Shown here one piece after another: positions 26,994-55,438 of a DNA stretch of 64,000 nucleotides. Both the position numbers and the translations under genes were made by a program. Location: the NCBI RefSeq assembly GCF_017888565.1, contig NZ_JAGHFX010000044.1:1-64000 (forward strand), in the 5' to 3' direction. The stretch comes from Clostridium sp. (lineage in GTDB: Bacteria; Bacillota; Clostridia; Clostridiales; Clostridiaceae). Each line of letters starts with the position of its first letter. Position 1 is the stretch's first letter. A model generated the notes under the pieces. It had not been told where the DNA came from and made no database searches. It worked only from the letters and a program-made list of their open reading frames with translations.

Positions 26994-27007
26994 ATTGGAA
27001 AAGATGA

Positions 27008-27041
27008 CCTTTAATTTAATCCAGAGAGATTAACAAGGAAG
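27008..27041 (+). promoter_or_regulatory. PyrR-binding hairpin 1 (anti-antiterminator)
   Basis: CCTT (27008-27011) pairs with AAGG (27035-27038), and TTAATC (27016-27021) pairs with GATTAA (27028-27033), closing a CAGAGA hexaloop. This is the PyrR RNA site: a CNGNGA loop, a six-pair upper stem, an internal loop and a lower stem. AAGGAAG (27035-27041), which includes the lower-stem right arm, can alternatively pair with CTTCCTT (27084-27090) of the terminator. UMP-bound PyrR should therefore stabilise this hairpin, free the terminator and shut off transcription. PyrR itself is not encoded in the window. Confidence 0.85.
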
Positions 27042-27082
27042 AGATTGTAATAGTAAAAGACTTTTATTTAGGGCTTATTATA

Positions 27083-27110
27083 CCTTCCTTGAAATAAGGA
27101 AGGTTTTTTT
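27083..27110 (+). terminator. Attenuator terminator of the pyr leader
   Basis: CCTTCCTT (27083-27090) pairs with AAGGAAGG (27096-27103), loop GAAAT, followed by seven T. Its left arm is complementary to the antiterminator sequence at 27035-27041. Confidence 0.92.
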
Positions 27111-27239
27111 GTAATTAATATAGTATATGTTTCAATTAATAATCTATGTTTTAATTAATAATTTATATCATTAATATATTATAAAATTAAAAGTTAATAG
27201 GTTTATTGAATTAAAATAGTAAAATTGAAAGCATATATA

Positions 27240-49540: not shown

Positions 49541-50008
49541 TATAACATCTTTATTATTAAAGTATATATATAAGTTTGCGTTGACTTGAAAACAAACGAG
49601 GGAAAAAGCTAACTTATATAGGTATATTTTTTATTGAATATAAAAAATAAAAATAATTTAAAATAAAAAAAGAGTGATTTGCCATAATCACTCTCCACAA
49701 TAAACTTGTGTAATATCTATTTCACTCCACTTGGAAGTTACTTAAGACTAGATTTATAATATCAGTATCTTATTAATATTACAAGTTGTAATTTATGTTT
49801 TACTTTGAAATATATGGAGAATGAGGCTATAAATCTTATTTTAAGTTAGTATTAAAAATACCTTTATGATTAATACTAACTCTAGGAATTATAACCTGTA
49901 AGAGTAAGTATAAATATTAATTTTAGAAATTATAAAAATATAGATGAATAAAAATAAATTCAGTTATAACAAGCTATAGTAATAATTTAAGAAAAGGTGG
50001 AGGATAAT
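49541..50008. other. Intergenic region with an orphan minus-strand terminator
   Basis: No intact gene is seen. Just upstream, in minus-strand sense, of the hairpin at 49671 a short frame ends in KWSEIDITQVYCGE and a stop (about 49695-49745). It looks like the C-terminus of a lost gene because it is protein-like and placed correctly before a terminator. The rest is AT-rich and contains the promoter of the sugar-binding protein gene. Confidence 0.4.
49664..49694 (-). terminator. Orphan terminator on the minus strand
   Basis: AGAGTGATT (49671-49679) pairs with AATCACTCT (49686-49694). Read on the minus strand, the hairpin is followed by seven T. No intact minus-strand gene precedes it. Confidence 0.75.
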
Positions 50009-51043
50009 GTGAAAAAAGTAAGTTTATTTAGTATGATAATAATTATAATACTGAATACATTAAGTTTAGATATAAGTGCTAATACGATGAAAATTAAGCC
50101 TATAAGAGCAGGAGTACTACTATATAATGAAGATGATTATTATATTTCTGAAGTGAGAGATTACTTGTTAAAAATAGAAAATGAAAATAAAGAAAGAATA
50201 GATTTTATATTTTATGATGCCGATAGAAATCAAGAATTGCAAAATAAGCAAATAGATGAACTCATAAATATGAAAGTAGATTTAATATTATTAAATATTG
50301 TAGATATAAATCAATCAGATTCAATAATAAACAAAATTAAAGCACATAATATTCCTGTAATATTTTTTAATAGAGAACCTTCATCATTAAATGGAATTAA
50401 GTCTTACGGGAAGTCTTTATATATAGGAACAGAAGCTTGTGAATCTGGTAATATTCAAGGTGAAATGATAATAAATGAGCTGAAAAGTGGAAATATAAAG
50501 GATAGGAATGGAAATGGTACATTAGATTATGTATTATTACAAGGCGATAGAAACAATATAGAAGCACAGTTAAGAAGTGAATGTGTCATAAAATCAATAA
50601 ATAAAAATGAAATTAGGACTAATGAAATAGCATCTGAATATTGTAATCGGGAGCAAGAATGTGCTAAAAATAAAATTGAGTCTTTATTTTCAAATTATGG
50701 AGATAATATTGAAGTAATAATTTCAAATAACGATGAAATGGCAATAGGAGCTATATTGGCACTTCAAGAAAGAGGATATAACATAGGAGATCCAAATAAG
50801 TTTATATCTGTAGTAGGAGTTGATGGAACAACTGAAGCAAGAAAAATGATAGAAAATGGATTTATGACAGGAACAGTTATACAGGATGCAGAAGGGATGG
50901 CAAAAGCAATTTATAGAATAGGCTTAAATTTAGCTGAAGGAAAGGATCCATTGCAAGATACAGAGTATAAATTTGATGTAACGGGTGTAGGAGTTAGAAT
51001 TCCGTATAATGGTTACATAGTGAGAAACTCACCAAATTCATAA
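50009..51043 (+). CDS. MglB-like galactose/sugar-binding protein, copy 1
   Basis: This is a periplasmic-binding-protein fold I protein close to the galactose/glucose-binding MglB group. The N-terminal signal (FSMIIIIILNTLSLDISAN) has no lipobox cysteine, which is unusual for a Gram-positive binding protein. Sugar-contacting residues are in VIFFNREP, VIISNNDEMAIGA and VVGVDGT. The calcium loop of MglB is preserved as DRNGNGTLD near residue 168. No ATPase or permease gene is near, so it may be a soluble sensor or use a distant transporter. Start: GTG 50009 is five bases after AGGTGGAGG; a reading from 49997 overlaps that site. A close paralogue lies 0.4 kb downstream. Confidence 0.88.
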   Translation: MKKVSLFSMIIIIILNTLSLDISANTMKIKPIRAGVLLYNEDDYYISEVRDYLLKIENENKERIDFIFYDADRNQELQNKQIDELINMKVDLILLNIVDINQSDSIINKIKAHNIPVIFFNREPSSLNGIKSYGKSLYIGTEACESGNIQGEMIINELKSGNIKDRNGNGTLDYVLLQGDRNNIEAQLRSECVIKSINKNEIRTNEIASEYCNREQECAKNKIESLFSNYGDNIEVIISNNDEMAIGAILALQERGYNIGDPNKFISVVGVDGTTEARKMIENGFMTGTVIQDAEGMAKAIYRIGLNLAEGKDPLQDTEYKFDVTGVGVRIPYNGYIVRNSPNS

Positions 51044-51460
51044 AATTAGTTTTTTTATACTGTTGTATTAATTACAAATAGATTGTTAAGTAAAGAGCTA
51101 TTAGATTTATATTTTTATAGAGAGATGAGAAAATTATAGCAGAAATATATCAAATTACATTTTAAGAGATAATTATTATAGTATTATTGTAGTCAAAAAA
51201 TATATAAGCAAGATAGAAGAATAGTGAGTGTAAAGTAAAAGGTCTATAAATGACCTTTTATTTTATTATTATTTAGTTTTTATTAAAATATAGAAATAAA
51301 GGGATTTAGTTTTATTGTAAGTATTTTTAAGCTTGTATAAAAATATTTTTTATGTTCAATACTAATTCAAGAGTCAAAATCTATAAAATTAATATTCAAA
51401 ATATTATAGTTAATATACTTAGCTAACTGTATTAATAGGTAAAGGATAGTGAAGAAGAAT
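51044..51460. other. Intergenic region between the two sugar-binding paralogues
   Basis: It holds the terminator at 51237 and AT-rich sequence that should include the promoter of the second copy. No coding sequence is supported. A small minus-strand frame here lacks a ribosome site. Confidence 0.5.
51237..51266 (+). terminator. Terminator between sugar-binding paralogues
   Basis: AAAAGGTC (51237-51244) pairs with GACCTTTT (51252-51259), followed by ATTTTATT. It lies about 190 bases after the stop of copy 1, leaving an unusually long 3' untranslated region. Confidence 0.85.
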
Positions 51461-52495
51461 ATGAAGAAATTTAGTTTATTTAGTATTATAGTAATTATAA
51501 TTATAAACATGGTTAGTTTAGATATAAGTGCTAATACAATGAACACAACACCATTAAGAGTAGGAGTACTTTTATACAATGAAGATATTTATTATATTTC
51601 TGAAATAAAAAAACAATTAGAAAAACTTGAAAGTGAAAATAAAGATGAAATAGATTTTATATTCTATAATGCTGAAGGAAATCAAGAATTACAAAATAAG
51701 CAAATTGATGAACTTATAAAAATGAAAGTAGATGCAATACTATTAAATATTGTAGATGTACATGAATCAGATTCTGTAATAAATAAAATCAAGGAAAATA
51801 ATATTCCTGTAATATTTTTTAATAGAGAGCCATTATCATTGAATGGAATTAAATCTTATAATAAATCTTTGTATGTAGGAACACAAGCTTGTGATGCAGG
51901 TAAGATTAAAAGTGAAATGATAATTAATGAGATAAAGAGTGAAAATATAAAGGATAAGAATGGAAATGGTAGTTTAGATTATATATTATTAGAAGGAGAA
52001 AAAGATAATGTAGAAGCTCAATTAAGGAGCGAATGTGTTATAAGATCTTTAAATGAAAACGGAATTAAAACTAATGAAATAGCTTCTGAAGTGTGTAACT
52101 GGGAAAAAGAATGTGCTAAAGAAAAGATTGAGTATTTATTTGATAAATATAATGATAATATTGAAGTAATAATTTCAAATAATGATGATATGGCAATAGG
52201 TGCTGTTTTGGCACTTCAAGAAAAGGGATATAATTTAGGAGATCCAAATAAATTTATATCAGTAGTAGGTATAGGAGGAACAGAGGAAGTTAGGGAAATG
52301 ATAAAAAAAGGATTTATGACGGGCACAGTTTTGCAAGATGCTGAAGAAAAGGCAAAAGTTCTATATAGAATAGTACTAAATTTAGCACAAGGTAAGAAAG
52401 CATTACAAGATACAGATTATGAATTTGATGTAACAGGGGTAGGGGTAAGGATACCATATAATGGTTACATAATAAGAAATTCACCAAATTTATAA
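51461..52495 (+). CDS. MglB-like galactose/sugar-binding protein, copy 2
   Basis: This paralogue aligns end to end with copy 1 without gaps and is identical over most positions, including the calcium loop (DKNGNGSLD), VIFFNREP and the C-terminal VTGVGVRIPYNGYI. Differences concentrate in the first helix pair (EIKKQLEKLESENKDE) and in the hinge after the last strand, where copy 1 has GVDGT and copy 2 has GIGGT. The Asp to Gly change in this sugar-binding loop may alter ligand preference. It also lacks a lipobox. ATG 51461 aligns with the start of copy 1; GTG 51449 is a possible alternative because AAAGGA lies close to it. It precedes the SCIFF gene, but the SCIFF unit has its own promoter. Confidence 0.86.
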   Translation: MKKFSLFSIIVIIIINMVSLDISANTMNTTPLRVGVLLYNEDIYYISEIKKQLEKLESENKDEIDFIFYNAEGNQELQNKQIDELIKMKVDAILLNIVDVHESDSVINKIKENNIPVIFFNREPLSLNGIKSYNKSLYVGTQACDAGKIKSEMIINEIKSENIKDKNGNGSLDYILLEGEKDNVEAQLRSECVIRSLNENGIKTNEIASEVCNWEKECAKEKIEYLFDKYNDNIEVIISNNDDMAIGAVLALQEKGYNLGDPNKFISVVGIGGTEEVREMIKKGFMTGTVLQDAEEKAKVLYRIVLNLAQGKKALQDTDYEFDVTGVGVRIPYNGYIIRNSPNL

Positions 52496-52523
52496 AATTA
52501 ATCTTTAATAATGAATTTTTTTG

Positions 52524-52532
52524 TGTTATAAT
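52524..52532 (+). promoter_or_regulatory. Extended -10 promoter of the SCIFF unit
   Basis: TGTTATAAT at 52524-52532 is a perfect extended -10 (TGnTATAAT). No good -35 is seen at 17 bases (TTTAAT). Transcription should start near 52539, 29 bases before the SCIFF ATG. Confidence 0.65.
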
Positions 52533-52567
52533 CGTGGGGTATTTTGGAAGAATGGGGGAGTATAATC

Positions 52568-52705
52568 ATGAAACATATCAAGACAATCAATAAGACTAAT
52601 ATCAAAAACAGCTTAGTAAAACCAGGCTGTAAAGAATGTGCTAACTCATGTCAATCAGCTTGCAAAACTTCATGTACAGTTGCAAACTTAGAGTGTGAAA
52701 ACTAA
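52568..52705 (+). CDS. scfA: SCIFF ribosomal peptide precursor (six cysteines in forty-five residues)
   Basis: This is the precursor of the clostridial SCIFF ranthipeptide. The product has exactly 45 residues and six cysteines: C21, C24, C28, C32, C36 and C43. The leader MKHIKTINKTNIKNSLVKPG and the core with SCQSACKTSCT match the family closely. The related CteA peptide of C. thermocellum receives a radical SAM-made thioether between Cys32 and Thr37, and both residues are present here (C32, T37). The core is probably modified in the cytoplasm by the maturase encoded next. ATG 52568 follows GGGGGAG. It is too short for ordinary length cut-offs. A hairpin after the stop should make the peptide transcript more abundant than the maturase. 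Confidence 0.95.
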   Translation: MKHIKTINKTNIKNSLVKPGCKECANSCQSACKTSCTVANLECEN

Positions 52706-52713
52706 TTAATAAG

Positions 52714-52746
52714 AAGCGGCAACAATTAGTTGCTGCTTACTTTTTA
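52714..52746 (+). terminator. Intercistronic terminator/attenuator between SCIFF and its maturase
   Basis: AAGCGGCAAC (52714-52723) pairs with GTTGCTGCTT (52729-52738) with one G-U pair, loop AATTA, then ACTTTTT. It is only eight bases after the peptide stop. Partial readthrough would set a high precursor-to-enzyme ratio. Confidence 0.85.
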
Positions 52747-52776
52747 GTTTAAGCAAAGCTTTTGGAGGGATGGAAA

Positions 52777-54132
52777 ATGTCTTTAATACACAAATTTAAA
52801 CAAGGTGATAATTATTTTGTATTAGATGTAAATACAGGAGCAGTTCATATAGTAGACGAGCTAGTATATGATTTAGTACATGATGATGGAATGAAGGATA
52901 AAGAAGAAACATTAAATCTTTTATGTGATAAATATGACAAAGATACAATTATAGAAGCCTATGATGAAATAATGGAGCTTGTAAAAGATGGCTTATTATA
53001 TTCAGAAGATAAGTATGAAGATATAGCTCATGGTTCAATGGATGATAGAGATTATATAAAGGCAGTCTGTCTAAATATAATTCATGGATGTAATTTAAGA
53101 TGTAAATATTGCTTTGCAGATGAAGGAGAATATAATGGACATAAAGGTGTTATGTCATTAGAAACTGCTAAAAAAGCAATAGATTATGTTGTAAAAAGAA
53201 GTGGTCCAAGAAGAAACATAGAAATAGATTTATTTGGTGGAGAACCAACTATGATCATGGATACTGTAAAAGAAATAATAAAGTATGCGAGAGAAAATGA
53301 AAAAGAGTGGAAGAAAAATATAAGATTTACAATGACAACAAATGCTACTCTTTTAAATGATGATATGATGGATTTCATGGACAAAGAAATGGGAAATATC
53401 ATACTTTCATTAGATGGTAGAAAATGTGTTAATGATAATGTAAGAATAAAAGTTGATGGAAGTGGATCTTACGATGACATACTTCCAAATATAAAGAAAA
53501 TGATTAAAAAGAGAACACCTGGTAAGATGTATTATGTTAGAGGAACATTTACAAGAGCAAATACGGATTTCTTTGAAGATGTAATGGCTATGGTAAATGA
53601 AGGCTTTGATGAAGTTTCTATAGAGCCAGTAGTTTTAGAAAAGGGACATCATCTTGCATTAAGAGAAGAAGATTTGCCAGAAATAATGAAAAATTATGAT
53701 AAACTATATGAAGATATGGTAAGAAGAAAAAGAGACAAAAATGGAGAGTATAACTTCTATCATTTTAATGTAGATTTAAATGGTGGACCATGTGTTTATA
53801 AAAGAATTTCAGGTTGTGGAGCAGGATTTGAATATGTTGCGATAACTCCACAAGGAGATGTTTACCCATGCCATCAATTTGTAGGAAAAGAAGAATTTAA
53901 ACTTGGAAGTATATATGATGATACATACAACAAAGACCTTGGCAAAGAATTTAAAAAAGCTCATATATACAATAAGCCTAAATGTAGAGATTGTTGGGCA
54001 AGATTCTATTGTAGTGGAGGATGCCAAGCTAATAACTTTAGCTTCAATGGAGATATGAAAATACCTTATGAAGTTGGTTGTAAAATGCAAAAGAAGAGAA
54101 TTGAATGTGCAATTGCTTTAAAGGCAGAATAA
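52777..54132 (+). CDS. scfB: SCIFF radical SAM maturase (SPASM domain)
   Basis: This enzyme installs sulfur-to-carbon thioether crosslinks in the SCIFF peptide. Residues 1-85 form a PqqD-like recognition element that binds the leader (FKQGDNYFVLDVNTGAVHIV). The radical SAM motif CNLRCKYC is near residue 106, and FGGEPTM is the SAM-binding GGE segment. The C-terminal SPASM region has a Cys in RISGCGAGFEYVAITPQGDV, then YPCHQF, and CRDCWARFYCSGGC (CX2CX5CX3C), enough ligands for two auxiliary 4Fe-4S clusters. The length of 452 residues is standard. ATG 52777 stands eight bases after GGAGG; TTG 52762 overlaps that site. A strong terminator follows. Confidence 0.96.
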   Translation: MSLIHKFKQGDNYFVLDVNTGAVHIVDELVYDLVHDDGMKDKEETLNLLCDKYDKDTIIEAYDEIMELVKDGLLYSEDKYEDIAHGSMDDRDYIKAVCLNIIHGCNLRCKYCFADEGEYNGHKGVMSLETAKKAIDYVVKRSGPRRNIEIDLFGGEPTMIMDTVKEIIKYARENEKEWKKNIRFTMTTNATLLNDDMMDFMDKEMGNIILSLDGRKCVNDNVRIKVDGSGSYDDILPNIKKMIKKRTPGKMYYVRGTFTRANTDFFEDVMAMVNEGFDEVSIEPVVLEKGHHLALREEDLPEIMKNYDKLYEDMVRRKRDKNGEYNFYHFNVDLNGGPCVYKRISGCGAGFEYVAITPQGDVYPCHQFVGKEEFKLGSIYDDTYNKDLGKEFKKAHIYNKPKCRDCWARFYCSGGCQANNFSFNGDMKIPYEVGCKMQKKRIECAIALKAE

Positions 54133-54141
54133 TTTAAATAT

Positions 54142-54180
54142 AAAAGTTGGTATTTGCTTATGTTCAAATACCAACTTTTT
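54142..54180 (+). terminator. Terminator after the SCIFF maturase gene
   Basis: AAAAGTTGGTATTTG (54142-54156) pairs perfectly with CAAATACCAACTTTT (54165-54179). Only about 30 bases separate it from the ribosome site of the M16 gene, leaving little room for an independent promoter. Confidence 0.92.
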
Positions 54181-54220
54181 ATATTACAATTATATAAGAA
54201 AATAAGTTTTGGAGGACAAG

Positions 54221-55438
54221 ATGGAATTTATATTAAAAAATAAGATGAAGCTTATATATACAAAAACTACATCTAATTTAACATCAATATCTATATCAAT
54301 AGATGCAGGTGCTTGTAAAGAAAAATACTTATTAGGGCTTGCTCATGCAACAGAGCATATGGTTTATAAAGGCACAAGAAAAAGAAATGAAGAAAAAATA
54401 AATAAAGACTTAAGTAAAATTTTTGGATTTCAAAATGCCATGACAAACTTTCCATATGTTATTTATTATGGAACTATGTTAAATGAAGATTTTGAAAATG
54501 GGATAGAGCTTTTTTCAGATATAATTTTAAACCCTATATTTCCAAATGCTGGTTTTAAAGAAGAAATGAATATAATAAAAGAAGAATTGAGGGAATGGGA
54601 TGAAGAATTAGAACAATATTGTGAAGATAAGTTATTTCTAAATAGTTTTAAGGAAAGAAGGATAAAGTATCCAATAATAGGTATAAGTGAAGATTTAGAA
54701 AAAATAAAGCTAGAAGATATACAAAAGTTTTATAAAGAAAATTATTTACCCTATAAAACCTCTATAGCAGTAGTTTCATCTTTAGAATTTGAAGAAATTA
54801 AAAATATAGTTGAAAGATATTTTGAGTCTTGGGAAAACTCATACGATAAGAATGGGAAGGAAGAAATTAGTTACGACAATACTAATTTTGATTTTTATAG
54901 AAATATTAAAGATGGCATTAATACTTGTAAAGTTCAAATTATCTTTCCAATAGATAGTCTAAGCTATGATGAAATAAAAGCACTAAGAATATTTAATGAA
55001 TATTTTGGAGAAGGAGTTAATTCATTATTATTCGATACATTAAGAACAAAAAATGGTCTTGTATATGATATCTTAACTAAGATTTCTTATGAAAAATATA
55101 TAAAGCTTTATAAAATAACTTATAGTACTTCAAAAGAAAATCTAGATAAATCCTTAGAATTAATAAATAGTTGTATTGAAAAAGTTAATAGATTTGAGAA
55201 AGAAATAAGTGATGAAGATATATTAGATTTTATAAAATCTATGAAACTAAAAAGATGGTTTAGAGAAGAACAAAATATAATATTAGCAAAAGAATTATCA
55301 ACATATAGTACAATGTTTGGAGATTATAAAATATATTTAGAAGAGTTTATTAATCTTGAATCTATAAATAAAAAATACATTTTAGATGTAGCTAAAAAAG
55401 TATTAAAAAATAAATCTATACAAGTAATAAGCAATTAA
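54221..55438 (+). CDS. M16 family zinc peptidase
   Basis: This is an insulinase/pitrilysin-type metallopeptidase of about 405 residues, the size of a single two-domain half. The inverted zinc motif HATEH (HxxEH) is in GLAHATEHMVYKGT near residue 45, and the third ligand glutamate is in NIIKEELREWDEELE near 125, so it should be active. The M16_C domain covers about 165-340 and has the conserved SLLFDTLRTKNGLVYDI. ATG 54221 follows GGAGGACAAG; TTG 54209 is inside that site. Lying directly after the SCIFF genes, it could process the modified peptide as PqqF-type enzymes do, but a terminator lies between and this is inference. The decarboxylase-like gene follows at 34 bases. Confidence 0.9.
   Translation: MEFILKNKMKLIYTKTTSNLTSISISIDAGACKEKYLLGLAHATEHMVYKGTRKRNEEKINKDLSKIFGFQNAMTNFPYVIYYGTMLNEDFENGIELFSDIILNPIFPNAGFKEEMNIIKEELREWDEELEQYCEDKLFLNSFKERRIKYPIIGISEDLEKIKLEDIQKFYKENYLPYKTSIAVVSSLEFEEIKNIVERYFESWENSYDKNGKEEISYDNTNFDFYRNIKDGINTCKVQIIFPIDSLSYDEIKALRIFNEYFGEGVNSLLFDTLRTKNGLVYDILTKISYEKYIKLYKITYSTSKENLDKSLELINSCIEKVNRFEKEISDEDILDFIKSMKLKRWFREEQNIILAKELSTYSTMFGDYKIYLEEFINLESINKKYILDVAKKVLKNKSIQVISN

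Follow-up and report, generated by a model that had tools for sequence, protein, structure and literature searches.

What might hold a ranthipeptide precursor in excess over the enzyme that modifies it, and does a peptidase gene close behind the two belong to the same pathway? Both questions are raised by a SCIFF locus at positions 52,524 to 55,438 of a 64,000-nucleotide stretch of Clostridium sp. DNA (contig NZ_JAGHFX010000044.1, assembly GCF_017888565.1; the whole stretch is called here the window), from a source genome (G000) of 4.26 Mb whose maturase, ScfB, shares 98% identity with the one from Clostridium tertium DSM 2485 (L264). An initial annotation, made from the letters alone, had proposed a complete SCIFF system with an attenuator between its genes and an M16 peptidase that could process the product. 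We propose, with a probability of about 0.6, that the locus is a complete SCIFF (ranthipeptide) operon in which the precursor gene, scfA, and the maturase gene, scfB, are separated by a conserved RNA hairpin that keeps the peptide above the enzyme. The parts of the operon are, in order:

52503..52532, plus strand: promoter-like sequence of scfA, with an upstream element (CTTTAATA) and an extended -10 (TGTTATAAT)
52568..52705, plus strand: scfA, SCIFF ranthipeptide precursor of 45 amino acids, ATG start, above the TIGR03973 and PF13165 cut-offs
52714..52738, plus strand: intercistronic hairpin AAGCGGCAAC-AATTA-GTTGCTGCTT, core at 52716-52736, tail ACTTTTTAGT, from folding and motif conservation
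52777..54132, plus strand: scfB, radical SAM/SPASM SCIFF maturase of 451 amino acids, ATG start, above the TIGR03974 cut-off

The locus was compared with 60 other loci of the genus, taken from the 63 other genomes with a TIGR03974 match (G159, G202 and the partial G197 were left out), and with 60 loci from 41 other genera, hand-chosen to spread across genera. Counting the window there are 121 loci from 42 genera, and scfA is within reach in 120 of them, the stretch of L038 beginning too late. A second set comprised 80 named loci, whose species are partly shared with the first. Since some of the fetched stretches end early, the lower neighbor counts given below are lower bounds. Of 194 genomes of the family, 191 match TIGR03973, as do 124 of 148 at class level; TIGR03974, at E 1e-100, has matches in 64 of 68 genomes of the genus, including all 55 of good quality. 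One family genome of 1.9 Mb (G005), 98% complete, is without a SCIFF match.

ScfA scores 79.8 bits on TIGR03973 (cut-off 50) and 76.8 on PF13165 (cut-off 27), and ScfB, whose gene starts 71 bases after scfA, scores 630.5 on TIGR03974 (cut-off 425); ScfB also carries PF04055 and PF13186, and its 806.9 on NF040492 (not_ScfB) lies under the cut-off of 855, so that it is not placed in that orphan family. Its closest solved structure is 5wgg/5why (E 3.2e-159), with a chain titled radical SAM domain protein, which we take to be CteB. Twelve cysteines of the maturase (98, 105, 109, 112, 339, 347, 365, 403, 406, 412, 416 and 435) are present in all 121 aligned ScfB proteins, in agreement with the radical SAM and full SPASM set first described. 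The precursor has six cysteines (21, 24, 28, 32, 36 and 43) and the threonines Thr34 and Thr37; all of them are kept in 120/120 scfA genes except Cys36, which is kept in 118. Thus the complete system and its 45-codon, six-cysteine precursor with Cys32 and Thr37, at 52568-52705, are confirmed. Of the Cys32-Thr37 crosslink that had been assumed, the conserved residues stand, while the pairing is disputed: Cys32 is the donor, and the accessible part of PMC8326336 gives its partner as Thr37 in vitro and as Thr34 on co-expression in E. coli, a difference between reports that recurs in the accessible part of PMC8172795. Upstream, the sigma-70-like site (52505-52532) has a TG ahead of its second hexamer; TGnTATAAT occurs within 110 bases upstream of scfA in 104/120 loci, and a CTTTA element, often replacing TTGACA, lies 13-22 bases before it in 53/120.

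A second ScfB copy is found in Clostridium vincentii (G140, L092 3227-4552), with no precursor seen in the 700 bases upstream and a single TIGR03973 match in the genome. This copy reaches 871.8 on NF040492 (cut-off 855), and the six scanned scfA-linked ScfB proteins of the genus score 805-825 on that model, exceeding their own TIGR03974 scores; it is probably a paralogue from within the genus, at risk of being misnamed.

As the initial annotation had reported, the hairpin begins 8 bases past the scfA stop. Its relaxed stem, GCAGTAAC-loop-GTTACTGC, is present in 99 of the 120 scfA-scfB gaps (52/60 in the genus, window included, and 47/60 in other genera) and has no copy outside that gap in the 1,690,103 bases of the 120-locus set; the named loci repeat the pattern, with the stem in 71/80 and none elsewhere in 1,013,571 bases. 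The strict stem, which the window copy does not match, being the variant GCGGCAAC/GTTGCTGC, occurs in 73 of 106 whole genomes and in 37 of 46 genera, mostly as a single copy, compared with 1/106 genomes for a reversed control pattern. Among the 71 genomes whose strict matches were listed (two of the 73 were not), 63 have one right behind scfA in a by-eye comparison, three have it only away from scfA (G033, G055, G062), and in five (G012, G053, G077, G093, G096) the place of scfA was not listed for comparison. We reject the idea that the stem derives from a generic terminator present in many copies, given zero copies outside the gap in both locus sets and the result of the reversed control. Additional copies exist at a distance from scfA in two genomes: three identical strict hairpins spaced about 7-8 kb apart in G048 (contig C6, 34731, 41880 and 50260) and one in G045. 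No Rfam family matches the hairpin at gathering score, and in the accessible parts of the SCIFF literature searched no conserved hairpin is mentioned, a search for SCIFF with terminator giving nothing relevant. Our covariance model (R1) also matches ordinary two-way terminators elsewhere in class-level genomes and is unspecific when used alone.

A first scan found a T-tailed hairpin in 57/60 gaps of the genus and 46/60 of other genera, with 1.8 and 1.1 expected from shuffles; terminator-like sites number 6 in 10 kb against 1.4 in shuffles. In the 114 gaps of up to 260 bases (six longer ones were left out), a strong hairpin, meaning -11 kcal/mol or better, is present in 110 (0.7 expected). Even the gaps that lack the motif have one in 15/19 (0.3 expected), by eye six near variants of the motif and nine other sequences; within the genus all 7 motif-less gaps have one, six of them with a different sequence. 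In the class-level set, 32/34 stretches contain a hairpin of -7 or better; for the 9 without an scfB start behind scfA, the stretch scored was the 120 bases after scfA.

Pairing, variation and position of the hairpin are as follows: (i) In an alignment of 94 copies (A1), 95.6% of the stem cells are paired, and cells with two-sided changes number 43 against 15.3 in shuffles, a value reached by 0/500, as is the covariation score. (ii) At columns 15-34 and 17-32, where the motif lets the two sides vary independently, the combinations are T-A, T-G and C-G, and A-T, G-T and G-C, and C-A and A-C are absent; 16 of the 94 copies break the outermost pair and 29 the innermost, and loop length varies between 3 and 12 bases. 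In our view the tolerance of G-U pairs and this variable loop make a DNA operator unlikely. (iii) The distance from the scfA stop to the motif is tight (quartiles 7-11 bases in the genus, 11-14 in other genera) and that from the motif to scfB is loose (30-89 and 27-51); because the spacing is held to the scfA stop and not to scfB, the hairpin would work at the 3' end of scfA. Masking of the scfB ribosome site is unlikely, given medians of 37 and 30 bases between the end of the motif and the scfB start.

The hairpin is also kept where scfAB has a different address. In other genera, scfAB mostly lies between yajC/TIGR04086 and secD/secF, within a conserved run whose gene clusters each occur in 50-55 of the 60 loci. 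The run was named from copies in the genus as ruvB, queA, tgt, yajC, TIGR04086, secD and secF, all from the source genome except yajC (G143), with the ruvB piece, from a partly scanned gene, just below its cut-off. At class level, 18 of 20 loci inspected by eye have yajC, tgt or TIGR04086 before scfAB, or secD after it. The source genome, G143, G188 and G156 each have this run intact without scfAB, and in the source genome the run shares a contig with scfAB, some 31 kb further downstream; G172 has secD and secF but lacks tgt and yajC in the roughly 4.9 kb upstream. Any move would have been out of the sec locus. Both the stem motif and the extended -10 promoter of scfA are found at the two genomic places. 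No literature linking SCIFF and SecD was found in the collection searched.

The old locus also offers control gaps. Across 13 of its intergenic regions in other genera, GTTACTGC occurs in 47/59 scfA-scfB gaps and GCAGTAAC in 44, shares that are not the highest, as the gap between clusters c3 and c9 has TATATAAT in 42/49 and GGCTGGTT in 39/49. Among 7-mer inverted repeats, CAGTAAC is the most frequent in the scfA-scfB gap, present in 45 of 59 loci, and in 11 of the 12 other gaps the most frequent one reaches at most 5 loci. A gap hairpin frozen in sequence is therefore a rare trait, seen in two of the 13 gaps; the gap between secF and c12 has a strong hairpin in 34/43 loci with no common stem sequence, as one would expect of plain terminators. 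The second frozen hairpin, GGCTGGT..ACCAGCC, lies behind the conserved TATATAAT (L350 10142 in the source genome, contig C67, before cluster c9) and has a 5-T run behind it in 0/37 copies; its flanking genes we take to be apt-like and relA/spoT-like, and it could serve the relA-like gene as a leader element.

How would such a hairpin raise peptide over enzyme? In clostridial operons under selective RNA processing and stabilization (SRPS), stem-loops stabilize the upstream part of the operon mRNA, according to the accessible part of PMC8219983, which also gives rules for their tails. Applied to the 99 motif copies with tail lengths chosen here, these rules give, for 10 bases, 55 stabilizers, 34 stabilizer-terminators (the window among them), 7 terminators and 3 unclassed, and for 8 bases, 76, 10, 0 and 13; stabilizers and stabilizer-terminators together make 89/99 and 86/99. 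We suggest that transcription starts at the extended -10 promoter ahead of scfA, that the hairpin, about 10 bases past the stop, marks the 3' end of scfA within the mRNA, and that it protects the scfA portion against 3' exonucleases following cleavage or decay of the longer mRNA. In the source genome, where five U follow two other bases behind the stem, it probably also ends some transcripts. The predicted result is abundant precursor and little maturase, as a multi-turnover enzyme needs.

The alternative that survives best, unlikely as we hold it, is a plain intrinsic attenuator, in which hairpin and U-tail end most transcripts after scfA and readthrough yields scfB. It would fit the 5-T run that follows the window stem after two bases, and a lax scan, accepting any stem with 5 T or more in 8, that finds terminator-like sites in 103/120 gaps with 2.9 expected from shuffles. 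Against it, an unbroken 5-T run within 12 bases of the stem core is present in just 12 of the 99 motif copies (9/52 in the genus, the window being one, and 3/47 in other genera), the tail rules of PMC8219983 class 7 copies with a 10-base tail, and none with 8 bases, as full terminators, and the strong secF-c12 hairpins show no common stem. An mRNA 3'-end stabilizer with some termination is preferred because most copies are without a solid U-tract; of the attenuator first proposed, the conserved hairpin behind scfA stands, and a T-tailed terminator does not appear to be its general nature.

Several observations weigh against the stabilizing hairpin that we favor. A pure stabilizer needs no frozen sequence, and our model leaves the sequence conservation unexplained, a trait that is itself not unique to scfAB, since the c3-c9 hairpin is frozen in 37/49 loci. 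The excess in the lax scan belongs here as well, as does the window copy, which is unclassed by the accessible rules of PMC8219983 with an 8-base tail. Covariation is less striking when counted by pairs: five pairs show a two-sided change, a number reached by 77/500 shuffles, and the number of pair types is reached by 29/500; the rows of A1 were moreover selected by motif, so its invariant columns are partly so by construction. No strong hairpin is present in 4/114 gaps (L094, L097, L099 and L136). Finally, the motif is mostly lost outside the family, with 5/34 class-level loci holding it, three of these five being among the four loci fetched owing to a covariance-model match.

The second question concerns what follows scfB:

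54143..54178, plus strand: terminator-like hairpin after scfB, dG -15.4, tail TTATATTACA
54221..55438, plus strand: M16-family zinc peptidase of 405 amino acids, HATEH at residues 42-46, PF00675 and PF05193
55472..56884, plus strand: YaaO-like pyridoxal phosphate enzyme of the Orn/Lys/Arg decarboxylase family, PF01276, 33 bases after the M16 gene

M16 peptidases have a second glutamate 76 residues past HxxEH, and the protein of the window has both M16 domains, the HxxEH and that glutamate. Its H42, E45, H46 and E122 are at least 95% identical across 60 M16 rows, window included, and the active site appears intact, as had been claimed. The start had been placed 30 bases past the scfB hairpin, which suits an upstream TTG at 54209; the ATG at 54221, with GGAGG ahead and 42 bases past the hairpin, is more likely. 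A sequence similar to that hairpin is found in L057 (C. tertium) and L043.

Conservation of this gene order has two faces. In all 60 loci of the genus the M16 gene follows scfB on the same strand, at -1 to 5200 bases, and in the other genera it is beside scfAB in 0/60 loci, all of which keep scfAB; in 46 of those 60 genomes a relative above 240 bits exists elsewhere, in several of the 15 loci read presumably near recJ-like and parC/parE-like genes. Co-conservation, on which the initial annotation had staked the peptidase, therefore holds within the genus and fails beyond it, where we reject M16 as a pathway gene across the SCIFF range. The decarboxylase is kept in 58/60 loci of the genus above the set score (59 with any match), and the other neighbors are far less constant: htpG 21, pdxK 7, an ECF-type gene 7, a sugar-binding protein 6 and a small minus-strand gene 2 (MocR, IMPACT, YebC, TrkH and TrkA genes, at 1-2/60, were left out as controls, being beyond the 4 kb fetched upstream in the window). 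Most simply read, three units once located apart joined in an ancestor of the genus and stayed close, with scfAB coming to lie beside the M16 and YaaO-like genes, which would form a separate unit.

Whether that unit has chemistry of its own, for instance around EF-P or polyamines and unrelated to SCIFF, is doubtful. The two genes are at most 20 bases apart in 22/60 loci and 21-100 apart in 15/60; the M16 protein weakly matches YfmF (72.7) and YfmH (31.3), both associated with 5-aminopentanol modification of EF-P; and yaaO affects EF-P modification in B. subtilis, as stated in the accessible part of PMC5885033. The scores, however, are far under the cut-offs (285 and 250), and in 15/60 loci more than 700 bases separate the genes. 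Outside the genus, moreover, a decarboxylase-family gene lies directly behind scfB without M16 in L094, L097 and L099 (genera g46 and g37), and another, a 28% match, behind scfB in L407; in a decarboxylase tree the genes of L094, L097 and L099 are set apart on long branches, and orthology is not claimed. The likeness of the decarboxylase to YaaO, and of a neighbor gene to tmk, is our assumption. Relatives of the decarboxylase in other genera are followed by a P-loop (tmk-like) kinase gene in 9/10 loci and have a YaaQ-like gene in 8/10.

Two further features of the window are noted apart from these units. Two similar 348-residue sugar-binding proteins lie in tandem directly upstream of scfA (49997-51043 and 51449-52495, listed GTG starts), the second MglB-like but below the cut-off (229.2 of 420), and a PyrR binding site RNA is found at 27004-27113 (RF00515, 58.1 bits).

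Improbable, in our estimate, is a sequence-specific RNA element, in which GCAGTAAC/GTTACTGC is recognized by a small RNA or by a protein, perhaps the maturase or some other factor, and the fate of scfA mRNA is thereby linked to a signal. It would explain why a strict stem recurs across 37 of 46 genera, usually with one copy per genome, and why the stem is kept in the genus, where scfAB lies elsewhere, and yet nine of the 15 strong hairpins in motif-less gaps have another sequence and, by eye, six are near variants, so that structure can replace sequence, and the loop varies from 3 to 12 bases. The codons at the end of scfA, inspected by eye, show no clear constraint hinting at a larger RNA switch.

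More improbable still is PqqF-like trimming of the SCIFF leader or product by the M16 peptidase: its constancy behind scfB (60/60, against 21 for htpG, 7 for pdxK and 6 for the sugar-binding protein) and a gap of at most 20 bases in 12/60 loci, which would fit a single mRNA, face its absence beside scfAB in 41 other genera, its relatives elsewhere in 46 of those genomes, and a T-tailed hairpin separating M16 from scfB in 18 of the 43 gaps that were scored, where chance would give 2.9. The peptidase is more plausibly a lineage-specific neighbor or partner than a PqqF-type pathway step, and outside the genus it would have no part in SCIFF maturation; within the genus, where its constancy exceeds that of the other neighbors in reach, it may be linked to SCIFF, but nothing indicates that it acts on SCIFF. 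No literature on a six-cysteine peptide with radical SAM and M16 was found in the collection searched. The most speculative picture, and a very unlikely one, would join both ideas: most Clostridiaceae would have a factor, possibly the matured peptide or the maturase itself, that recognizes the GCAGTAAC/GTTACTGC stem and couples precursor mRNA to demand, and in the genus M16 and the YaaO-like enzyme would have joined the circuit.

A cis element nearly unchanged between genera suggests strong selection on the dose of precursor over enzyme, and the hairpin is a small, exact target for studying the control of SCIFF, which occurs in most Clostridia and whose role is debated. Chen et al. 2020, as cited in the accessible part of the review PMC8102284, found sporulation genes lowered and agr raised in C. 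beijerinckii after disruption of the genes for precursor and enzyme. Gene order, in turn, removes M16 from the general SCIFF genes and adds tgt, yajC, TIGR04086, secD and secF as old neighbors.

The locus shares with the SCIFF system (TIGR03973/TIGR03974; CteA-CteB, Tte1186a-Tte1186) the precursor, the maturase, the gene order and the Cys/Thr positions and, unlike the known SCIFF systems, adjoins in this genus an M16 and a YaaO-like gene. PqqF-type M16 peptidases act in pathways of ribosomally synthesized and post-translationally modified peptides (RiPPs); the peptidase here is of the same family with the same HxxEH, but was not found beside scfAB outside one genus. Intrinsic attenuators occur between RiPP precursor and enzyme genes, and the scfAB hairpin has the same place and presumed effect, mostly with a broken U-tract. 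A further parallel is found in the SRPS operons of PMC8219983, the main text of which has no match for SCIFF or radical SAM: as far as its accessible part describes them, they have, as scfAB appears to have, a stable stem-loop with a short or broken U-tail in the 3' untranslated region of the gene needed in excess, and what sets scfAB apart is that its stem sequence is conserved between genera.

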